From Stutzerimonas stutzeri (GTDB taxonomy: Bacteria; Pseudomonadota; Gammaproteobacteria; Pseudomonadales; Pseudomonadaceae): 64,000 nucleotides of DNA. The position numbers and the translations under genes are program-made. This document shows, one piece after another, positions 7,317-21,998 of the stretch; position 1 is the first letter of the stretch; each line of letters starts with the position of its first letter. Where the stretch lies: NCBI RefSeq assembly GCF_024451105.1, contig NZ_JANGEY010000001.1:620001-684000 (forward strand), in the 5' to 3' direction. The notes under the pieces are model-generated. The model worked only from the letters and a program-made list of their open reading frames with translations, searched no databases and was not told where the DNA came from.

Positions 7317-7345
7317 AAAGAAAACCCCGCCGAAGCGGGGTTCTT
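7317..7345. terminator. bidirectional terminator between araC-type gene and acyl-CoA dehydrogenase
   Basis: AACCCCGC-CGAA-GCGGGGTT (7323-7342) is flanked by TTCTT on the plus side and by an A-rich stretch that reads as a T-rich tail on the minus strand. It serves the AraC gene and can also stop leftward transcription from the dehydrogenase. The 261 bases between those two genes hold nothing else. Confidence 0.75.
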
Positions 7346-7494
7346 GCAGACCGTGTCCTGACATCCTTGATCGCCCCACCATCCTGATGGGATCCCTGTG
7401 ATCCGTGTTCTGATTCGCGCTTCCTGCGCCAAGTCCAGATGTGCTCAGATTAGTTGTCGGGCCGATCTCTTCATAGGGCGGTTATCCGCCACGG

Positions 7495-18080: not shown

Positions 18081-18977
<897 letters not shown>

Positions 18978-18992
18978 GCGTTTTTCGAACGA

Positions 18993-19700
18993 TTCCCTGC
19001 AGGCCGCGCCAATCGTGGCCTGCAGGGAACTGCCCCGAGGTTTTCCACAGGCTGGTTCAGCGCCGCTGTGCACAAACCAGGCCCGTCGCCCTGTACGGAA
19101 AATCGCCAGAGTCCGTGCGCAGCCCGCGGCCGGCGCAGCCTGGCGATCCATCCCGAGCTTATCCACAGGCTGATCCCCCGCCATTGTGGAAAACACCACT
19201 CGACGGCGCTCGTGGCCGCCTGATCAAGATTCGACCAACCCCCTGCAGGGCAGGCCACATGCGGCCTACCGCGAGATGCACGCAGCTTGTCCACAGCCTG
19301 ATCCACCCCGATTGTGCACAACCCGGGGCTGTGGAAAGCGCCGCCATGCGGAGTTGCCCACAGCCATGGCAGGAATCCCGTACAAAAAACCACCAGAAGC
19401 CGCCAGGCCGCGCGGCGACTGGCCTGCAGCCAGGGCTCCAGAGCTTGTCCACAGGGGCATCCACCTCCGCCGTGCATAACCCCGACAGCGCTGTCCAATA
19501 ATCGATCAATCGCCCGCAGGCCGCATGGCGCCTGGCCTGCAGCGCTGTGCCCCAGGCTTGTCCACAGCCCCATCCACGGCAAACGGGGACAAGCCGCGAG
19601 CGAGGCGGCGCGCGCCTCCCGCCGCTGTGGAAAAGTCGCCGGCGCGGGTTGTGCGCAAGCGCCACGCATCGGCCTTGGGTCGCGGTTTTCCACGACTTTT
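18993..19700. repeat. non-coding array of paired DnaA-box-like motifs
   Basis: The 846-base gap between rarD and glcB holds no gene but five related units. Each has a 9-mer TTNTCCACA and an inverted partner TGTGNANAA whose start is always exactly 26 bases later: 19041/19067, 19159/19185, 19287/19313, 19445/19471 and a weak 19558/19584. Units 1, 4 and 5 also have GGCCTGCAG exactly 24 bases before the first 9-mer, as the right arm of a small inverted repeat (GCAGGCC or close, 11-base spacer). Perfect matches to TTWTNCACA lie at 19041, 19159, 19185 and 19626, with several one-mismatch sites. DnaA binding is suggested, not shown. Confidence 0.8.
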
Positions 19701-19823: not shown

Positions 19824-21998
19824 ATGACTGAACGCGTGCAAGTCGGTGGCCTGCAGGTCGCCAAAGCCCTTTACGACTTCGTCACCAACGAAGCCATTCC
19901 CGGTACCGGCGTCAGCGCCGACCAGTTCTGGGCTGGCGCCGACAGCGTGATCCACGACCTGGCGCCGAAGAACCGCGCCCTGCTGGCCAAGCGTGACGAG
20001 CTGCAGGCCAAGATCGACGCCTGGCACCAGGCCCGCGCCGGCCAGGGCCACGACGCCGTGGCCTACAAGGCCTTCCTGCAGGACATCGGCTACCTGCTGC
20101 CGGAAGCCGAAGACTTCCAGGCCACCACCGAGAACGTCGACGACGAGATCGCCCGCATGGCCGGCCCGCAGCTGGTGGTGCCGGTGATGAACGCCCGCTT
20201 CGCCCTGAACGCCGCCAACGCCCGCTGGGGCTCGCTGTACGACGCCCTGTACGGCACCGACGCCATCCCGGAAACCGACGGCGCCGAGAAGACTGCCGGC
20301 TACAACCCGCTGCGCGGCGCCAAGGTCATCGCCTTCGCCCGCGCCTTCCTCGACGAGGCCGCGCCGCTGGAAGGCGCCTCCCACGTCGACGCCACCGGCT
20401 ACGCCATCGACGGCGGCAAGCTGGTCGTCAGCCTGGCCAATGGCAGCACCGGCCTGCAGAACCCGGCCCAGCTGATCGGCTTCCAGGGCGAGGCCGCGGC
20501 GCCCAAGGCCGTGCTGCTGAAGAACAACGGCATCCACTTCGAGATCCAGATCGACCGCAACAGCCAGATCGGCAAGACCGACGCGGCGGGCGTGAAGGAC
20601 GTGCTGATGGAGGCCGCGCTGACCACCATCATGGACTGCGAGGACTCGGTCGCCGCGGTCGATGCCGAAGACAAGGTCATCGCCTACAAGAACTGGCTGG
20701 GCCTGATGAAGGGCGACCTGGCCGAGGAAGTGGCCAAGGGCGGCACCACCTTCACCCGCACCATGAACCCGGACCGCGTCTACACCGCGGCCAATGGCGG
20801 CGAGCTGACCCTGCACGGCCGTTCCCTGCTGTTCGTGCGCAACGTCGGTCACCTGATGACCAACGACGCGATCCTCGACAAGGACGGCAACGAGGTGCCG
20901 GAAGGCATCATGGACGGCCTGGTCACCAGCCTGATCGCCATCCACAACCTCAGCGGCAACACCAGCCGCAAGAACAGCCGCACCGGCAGCGTGTACATCG
21001 TCAAGCCGAAGATGCACGGCCCGGAAGAAGCCGCCTTCACCAACGAGCTGTTCGGCCGCATCGAGGACGTCCTCGGCCTGGCGCGCAACACCCTCAAGGT
21101 CGGCATCATGGACGAGGAACGCCGCACCACCGTCAACCTCAAGGCGTGCATCAAGGCCGCCCGCGAGCGCGTGGTGTTCATCAACACCGGCTTCCTCGAC
21201 CGCACCGGTGACGAGCTGCACACCTCCATGGAGGCCGGCGCCTTCATCCGCAAGGGCGACATCAAGAACGCCGCCTGGATCAAGGCCTACGAGAACTGGA
21301 ACGTCGACATCGGCCTGGCCACCGGCCTGTCCGGTCGCGCGCAGATCGGCAAGGGCATGTGGGCCATGCCCGACCTGATGGCCGGCATGCTCGAGCAGAA
21401 GATCGTGCATCCGATGGCCGGCGCCAACACCGCCTGGGTACCGTCGCCGACCGCCGCCGCCCTGCACGCCCTGCACTACCACAAGGTCGACGTGTTCGCC
21501 CGCCAGCAGGAGCTGGCCAAGCGCGAGCGCGCCTCGCTGGACGACATCCTGACCATCCCGCTGGCGCCGAGCATCAGCTGGAGCGCCGAGGAGATCCAGA
21601 ACGAGCTGGACAACAACGCCCAGGGCATCCTCGGCTACGTGGTGCGCTGGATCGACCAGGGCGTCGGCTGCTCCAAGGTGCCGGACATCAACGACATCGG
21701 CCTGATGGAAGACCGCGCCACCCTGCGCATCTCCAGCCAGCACATCGCCAACTGGCTGCGCCACGGCGTGTGCTCCGAGGCCCAGGTGCGCGAGACCTTC
21801 GAGCGCATGGCCCTGGTGGTGGACCGGCAGAACGCCAACGACCCGCTGTACCGGCCGATGGCGCCGAACTTCGACGACAACATCGCCTTCCAGGCCGCCC
21901 TCGAGCTGTGCATCGAAGGCACCAGGCAGCCCAACGGCTACACCGAGCCGGTGCTGCACCGCCGTCGTCGCGAGTTCAAGGCCCGCAACGCCCAGTAA
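19824..21998 (+). CDS. glcB: malate synthase G
   Basis: A 724-residue malate synthase G, condensing glyoxylate with acetyl-CoA to malate in the glyoxylate shunt; the length matches the family. Landmarks are [75 protein letters not shown] and [15 protein letters not shown]. The start is fixed by GTGAGGCAAGCA before the ATG; an upstream open extension runs through the repeat array and is not coding. It stands alone between an operator-bearing leader and a hairpin. Together with pckA in this window it supports growth on acetate or fatty acids. Confidence 0.97.

Follow-up and report, generated by a model that had tools for sequence, protein, structure and literature searches.

The array between rarD and glcB

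Five tandem modules occupy the 846 bases that separate two genes in the window (the whole 64-kb stretch of DNA that was analysed): a gene at 18081-18977, which we take to be rarD, and a gene at 19824-21998, which we take to be glcB. Relatives of the encoded GlcB were found by search. The array of DARS-like modules as a whole spans 18976-19592 on the plus strand; its profile E-values run from 5.8e-23 to 1.6e-12 and apply to copies that belong to the training set.

Each module holds a 35-base core composed of two 9-mers whose starts are 26 bases apart. The cores begin at 19041, 19159 and 19287 (no mismatch to the 15 specified letters of the pattern), 19445 (one mismatch) and 19558 (two), exactly where a first-pass annotation had placed five modules with this spacing, the fifth weaker than the rest. 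It had also noted that in three modules GGCCTGCAG precedes the first 9-mer by 24 bases, and we find it so in modules 1, 4 and 5. Searches of the plus strand for the 35-mer, even with three mismatches allowed, found nothing in 300 dinucleotide-shuffled versions of the 846-bp intergenic region and nothing in the rest of the window. Boxes of the form TTWTNCACA are concentrated in the same interval: over both strands of the 64-kb window all four perfect boxes lie there, and with one mismatch allowed it contains 13 of 20, or 15.4 per kb versus 0.11 elsewhere. The genome scan that the annotation had proposed confines the exact 35-mer to the array (three forward matches and one reverse reading of module 2), while a looser profile gives seven matches in the same genome at E<=1e-4, five of which are in the array.

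In the descriptions that follow, Fis-like sites and DnaA box positions III and II are on the plus strand, box I positions are on the minus strand, and repeat regions carry no strand. Module 1 opens with the Fis-like site GAGCGTTTTTCGAAC (18976-18990), which overlaps the rarD stop codon and reads G-N2-Y-N7-R-N2-C, one base off GnnYAnnnnnYRnnC. Its inverted repeat TTCCCTGCAGGCC..GGCCTGCAGGGAA (18993-19029) is followed by TTTTCCACA at III (19041-19049), TGGTTCAGC, a poor match, at II (19053-19061), and TGTGCACAA at I (19067-19075). Module 2 lacks the Fis-like pattern, which is broken by a one-base shift, and has a degenerate repeat region (19116-19142); its box III is perfect (TTATCCACA, 19159-19167), with TGATCCCCC at II (19171-19179) and TGTGGAAAA at I (19185-19193). 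The full Fis-like pattern is present in module 3 (GATCAAGATTCGACC, 19222-19236), ahead of an inverted-repeat region (19244-19270) and the positions III TTGTCCACA (19287-19295), II TGATCCACC (19299-19307) and I TGTGCACAA (19313-19321). Module 4 has a Fis-like site with one mismatch (GTACAAAAAACCACC, 19380-19394), an inverted-repeat region (19402-19428), and TTGTCCACA, GCATCCACC and CGTGCATAA at III (19445-19453), II (19457-19465) and I (19471-19479). In module 5 the Fis-like pattern is again complete (GTCCAATAATCGATC, 19493-19507); the inverted-repeat region (19515-19541), TTGTCCACA at III (19558-19566) and CCATCCACG at II (19570-19578) follow, and box I (CGGGGACAA, 19584-19592) is weak.

Further, looser DnaA-like 9-mers that do not belong to the three-box geometry occur near 19330, 19354, 19626 and 19686 (within 19330-19694), in gaps between modules and past the last one. 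The RsmY small RNA gene, at 7321-7438 on the minus strand, is the sole Rfam gathering-level match in the window.

Anatomy of the module

When relatives' copies are aligned on the first 9-mer there are almost no indels, and the 35-base core proves to be part of a rigid element of about 107 bases. In these aligned copies a Fis-consensus-like site, G-N2-Y-A-N5-Y-R-N2-C with an A/T-rich centre, starts at -65. An inverted repeat with imperfect arms, TGCAGGCC..GGCCTGCA, covers roughly -43 to -17, and a spacer resembling CCCNAGG separates it from the first box. Three DnaA boxes follow: a TTNTCCACA box at 0, a TGATCCMCG-like middle box at +12 and an opposite-facing box at +26. Boxes III and II are thus co-oriented with starts 12 apart, and box I is opposed, its start 14 beyond that of II. 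The annotation had described two 9-mers flanking 17 free bases; the pair and its spacing hold, but the 17 bases contain a third, weaker DnaA-like box at +12, so that each module has three.

Because the filter that picked the 84 aligned modules drew on the first box and on the register of the Fis site, the conserved letters of those two parts are partly a product of selection. A test free of that filter used 29 places picked by the two outer 9-mers alone, comprising all matches of that pattern; several of the places are orthologous and hence not independent, and two (L093 and L100) look unrelated or distant. The middle-box core TNC[AC]C occurs at +15 in 24 of the 29 (the other 12 offsets have a mean of 0.33 and a maximum of 2), and GnnYAnnnnnYRnnC occurs at exactly -65 in 18 (mean 0.13 and maximum 3 over the other 149 offsets). 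The middle box is missing in five places and the strict Fis consensus in 11. Our Fis pattern permits C where the published consensus, GnnYAnnnnnTRnnC, has T (PMC4245941). An IHF site as a part of the module was rejected, since the consensus had no match in 38 readings covering offsets -130 to +59.

The inverted repeat raises the question of a structured RNA or terminator family, a form of which, small hairpin RNAs, the annotation had offered. Paired changes are seen at 10 of 11 pairs of the repeat. With the two helices pooled, none of 500 shuffles reaches the observed covariation score (0.128; shuffled, 0.106) or the observed 75.2% of cells that pair. However, the repeat helix pairs in just 70.5% of cells, sliding the whole structure by +2 yields as many double changes (45 versus 40), the most conserved letters are those of the DnaA boxes (box III by selection), and rigid spacing without loop indels is atypical of RNA. 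A known Rfam RNA at the array was rejected, there being no gathering-level match, and so was a hairpin between the outer 9-mers, where 81% of cells pair and one of nine pairs has a double change. We find the RNA reading very hard to credit, and the hairpin suggestion fared poorly.

The boxes differ in strength by position. Among 79 copies (76 of 97 rows of family copies plus three own-genome copies), at least eight of nine letters match TTATCCACA at III in 57 and at II in eight. The copies strong at II sit at single-copy-type loci, namely the LonB-like, thrC-rmuC and FKBP loci (L103-L105 of the same genome and others), and they resemble E. coli DARS1; the array of the window falls in the III-strong class.

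Comparison with E. coli DARS, datA and oriC

Read in the module strand sense, E. coli DARS1 has TAATACACA, TTATCCACA and AGTGGATAA with 9-mer starts 12 and then 14 apart, and the boxes of the DARS2 core are laid out at these 12/14 intervals too; the 26-base spacing of the modules is therefore 12 + 14. DARS1 and DARS2 are described as having a common box spacing, with box I opposed to II and III and head-to-head contact prominent (PMC5742627). Similarity extends beyond the layout. R1, a sequence-only profile of 62 Pseudomonadaceae modules (61 of the 84 aligned and module 2 of the window), matches DARS1 over 97 bp (model positions 14-110, 25.4 bits, E 6.5e-7; 50 kb of E. coli, 69 kb searched). 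Its match to the DARS2 core is weak (10.2 bits, E 0.035), and E. coli datA and oriC give no match at E up to 10. An oriC fragment was rejected as a description of the module, with R1 reaching at most 14.9 bits in five dnaA loci (L108-L112). For full activity DARS1 is reported to require a 42-bp flank next to its last box (PMC4585315), which we take to be the side bearing the inverted repeat of the module; the flank beyond box III aligns to DARS1 by R1 and is conserved among the modules.

DARS1, in the bioD-uvrB intergenic region, thus shares with the modules the three boxes, their orientation, the 12/14 spacing and the 97-bp similarity including the flank beyond III. It differs in being a single, non-tandem copy and in lacking any match to the Fis consensus around the upstream position. 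In both DARS1 and DARS2 the TTATCCACA box is II, whereas the array copies are strong at III. This reversed order of box affinity counts against DARS, and it is mainly for that reason that we call the array a variant and keep titration of DnaA as a rival. DARS2, in the rppH-mutH region, shares the core geometry; it is reported to use Fis and to exchange ADP for ATP on DnaA through a nucleoprotein complex (PMC5742627, PMC4245941). Its Fis and IHF sites lie in a regulatory region of about 400 bp, whereas the modules have no IHF consensus and their predicted Fis sites keep a fixed register (the 18 of 29 places above) with a placement unlike that in DARS2.

The DARS2 region has a second three-box 12/14 set (L102 2636-2670, minus strand), which may represent accessory DnaA boxes; the core set, at 2952, is 316 bp away. 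The proximity of bioB to the array and of bioD to E. coli DARS1 was judged a coincidence because the two lie on opposite sides of the cluster.

The annotation had likened the array to datA as a DnaA-titrating locus. A datA-like site would promote hydrolysis of DnaA-ATP and so inactivate DnaA, and the array does resemble datA in being an intergenic DnaA-box cluster distant from oriC: in three genomes of the same genus it lies 481, 623 and 609 kb from dnaA, and the datA region of E. coli is about 467 kb from oriC. The essential boxes of datA are, however, said to face one direction and to need an IHF site (PMC5742627), while here one box opposes two, the modules have no IHF consensus, and R1 finds nothing in datA. 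We consider inactivation improbable; the datA half of the earlier proposal fits less well than DARS does, and its titration half survives among the alternatives. Another resemblance, in the presence of several clusters near the origin, is to the oriC-proximal DnaA-box clusters of B. subtilis, reportedly described by Okumura in 2012.

Distribution and conservation of loci

At E<=1e-4, R1 matches 95 of 99 Pseudomonadaceae genomes, with 7-12 matches per genome in the genus of the window, 15-18 in g9, 24-33 in g11 and fewer in several other genera. The four genomes of genus g12 (G018, G034, G067 and G078) have no match at this threshold and do have Fis; natural loss of the modules is a possible reading. 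In eight complete genomes the modules are grouped in short arrays, and many of these occupy orthologous loci. When the fetched stretches were compared by BLAST within g9, all six G015 loci and all seven G099 loci match G030 loci, and locus matches across genera were obtained for four of seven G033 loci (g11), all four G094 loci (g14) and both other G002 loci (the genus of the window).

These figures bear on whether the modules are a functionless dispersed repeat of the REP or another mobile type. Similar modules do stand at several loci, and the 7-33 copies per genome in some genera go part of the way to the genome-wide scatter of an ordinary REP element that the annotation had named as contrary to its reading. 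However, flanking sequence shows many of the loci to be orthologous across species and genera, the copies have diverged and yet kept their register almost free of indels, the similarity extends to E. coli DARS1, and the exact 35-mer is nowhere else in the genome. We therefore regard a repeat of this kind as very doubtful. The annotation's view of the 9-mers as DnaA boxes under selection for spacing is supported, with spacing and register kept across genera.

The array had been placed by reference to glcB, and this anchor was rejected. Among the loci fetched with GlcB, 26 of those examined hold rarD, and in 21 of the 26 at least one TTNTCCACA occurs no more than 900 bases beyond the rarD end; L013, L015, L021, L024 and L026 have none in that interval. 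In the box-bearing Pseudomonas loci inspected, the boxes come directly past rarD and an ORF, ACT-domain-like as named by eye, stands between them and glcB; where it intervenes, the copies remain with the rarD 3' end, which is thus the conserved anchor. The rarD locus is represented by L114, L127, L132 and L144. Other loci with modules adjoin a chemotaxis receptor-like gene, pyruvate kinase, EF-G, a LonB-like gene, thrC-rmuC and an FKBP gene (RmuC and FKBP were named by Pfam and thrC by eye; the LonB-like match is below the family cut-off). One Pseudomonas syringae strain has an additional pair of modules some 3.6 kb past the glcB end (L017 9776-10061, minus strand).

An operator for rarD, glcB or a neighbour, bound by a transcription factor or by DnaA with Fis, would suit an intergenic array that stands upstream of glcB in this genome. 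It suits less well the unrelated genes that similar modules adjoin elsewhere, or the ORF that parts the modules from glcB in the Pseudomonas loci inspected, and we think it very unlikely.

Beyond the family, a class-level R1 search gave matches in 30 of 143 genomes, the own genome included, with at most three outside the family; R1 is biased to the family, and the search is thus no count of DARS in other groups. The core pattern TTATCCACA-N6-GTGGATAA, which does not depend on R1, occurs in 116 of 274 genomes of the class, and its reversed control had no match in the genomes listed. Among the matches listed, 30 places were checked: in 22 of them box III TNCAC stands where it was expected, against at most 2 at any other offset. 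Together with the 116 genomes this indicates that DARS-type cores are widespread. At the same 30 places, chosen by the II-I pair among the matches listed, the Fis consensus was found in none at the expected -77 and in seven at -78, compared with a mean of 0.15 over all offsets but -77 (these seven included) and three at the next best offset. The -78 register is one base off the prediction and was adopted post hoc; L103, L104 and L147 have it too. This hints that the upstream Fis site is old.

Position relative to oriC

In the eight complete genomes, the 42 loci found at E<=1e-6 lie at a mean of 0.233 of the arm from dnaA, 40 of them in the proximal half; at E<=1e-3 there are 54 loci, with a mean of 0.286 and 46 in the proximal half. 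With one genome per genus (21 loci, mean 0.248), p is about 1e-5 against uniform placement. A combined rotation test gave values as small in four of 20000 trials, a test that treats genomes as independent although they share orthologous loci, and rotation of single genomes (E<=1e-6) gave p from 0.06 to 0.38. In the genus of the window alone, origin proximity is not significant (p 0.21 in G002 and 0.31 in G007).

In all three of G015, G030 and G099, loci stand at roughly mirror distances on either side of dnaA, about 0.17 and 0.52 Mb; two of the three also have mirror loci at 0.8 Mb, and a locus near 1.1-1.3 Mb is one-sided. A conserved orientation relative to the fork was rejected, the strands following no rule by eye.

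Most array-type modules have one strong box, and origin-proximal arrays, doubled early after initiation, would consequently soak up free DnaA. The arrays might then act mainly as a DnaA sponge. The strength of box III in 57 of the 79 copies and the crowding of loci into the oriC-proximal half favour this, as does the statement that a high density of boxes near oriC is advantageous for titration in E. coli (PMC12371093). Titration has, however, no need of a rigid head-to-head geometry of three boxes or of a fixed Fis register, yet both are conserved, and the single-genome rotation tests and the genus of the window lack significant origin proximity. We hold titration as the main role to be unlikely, though it is the chief rival reading.

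Proposed mechanism

We prefer the reading of the modules as DARS-type elements that would bind DnaA and govern its nucleotide state or its supply. The boxes, their geometry, the register of the Fis consensus, the similarity to DARS1, the conservation of loci and the occurrence of genes for Fis, DnaA and an Hda-like protein are read from the sequences themselves. Fis homologues are present in all 16 genomes tested (g12 included), and DnaA in all five, each with a second, weaker and shorter match that we take to be Hda. That the modules are DnaA-binding elements of DARS architecture appears highly probable; for nucleotide exchange as their function we put the chances at about even. Counting against the proposal are the reversed box strength; the departures in window modules 1 (box II), 2 and 4 (Fis site) and 5 (box I); the places that lack a middle box or the strict Fis consensus; the lack of an IHF consensus at the modules, given that DARS2 needs IHF; the low R1 score of the DARS2 core; the g12 genomes, which have Fis and no R1 match at E<=1e-4; and the five rarD loci in which no TTNTCCACA follows within 900 bases. 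From the same material we infer binding of DnaA and Fis, nucleotide exchange and an effect on the timing of initiation.

DnaA molecules would bind positions III, II and I in each module. Since III and II are co-oriented and I is opposed, the protomers would face each other head-to-head, the arrangement put forward for the DARS of E. coli. At the fixed upstream site a Fis dimer, probably assisted by the inverted-repeat segment, would bend or stabilise the complex and tie the module to growth phase, Fis favouring the complex in fast growth. The most likely outcome would be reactivation, in which ADP is released from DnaA and ATP is reloaded, and it would be delivered by many copies in mostly oriC-proximal arrays rather than by the two DARS sites of E. 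coli. The whole proposal, that is, five tandem DARS-type elements that bind DnaA and Fis, exchange nucleotide and affect initiation, seems to us evenly balanced between right and wrong.

Going further, we tentatively suggest, with less confidence, that pseudomonads control DnaA through a new device, distributed, Fis-gated tandem arrays derived from DARS (up to 33 modules per genome) at several conserved loci flanking oriC, in which the strong box has moved from II to III, alongside a few classical single DARS at the LonB-like, thrC-rmuC and FKBP-gene loci. Such a device could be, for example, a switch, gated by growth phase, that either stores DnaA or recharges it and has an output proportional to the number of origin copies.

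Relation to known elements and significance

DARS elements are already known, and the tandem, multi-locus pseudomonad form with a Fis site is a variant of them. The open-access literature consulted (e.g. PMC5742627, PMC12371093, PMC8682772, PMC4245941, PMC4585315, PMC4285127) yielded no DARS in pseudomonads, tandem or multi-locus; conservation of DARS2 is placed there in E. coli-related species (PMC5742627, PMC4245941). Recharging and titration of DnaA outside enterics seem little tested. The proposal suggests that the enteric DARS1/DARS2 pair may be younger than a DARS core with a Fis site upstream of it. If the proposal is true, the arrays would offer precise target sites for the study of DnaA control in pseudomonads, and the family would provide a natural series, from a single DARS through tandem arrays to multi-locus arrays, in which to ask whether geometry, Fis or copy number sets the timing of initiation.
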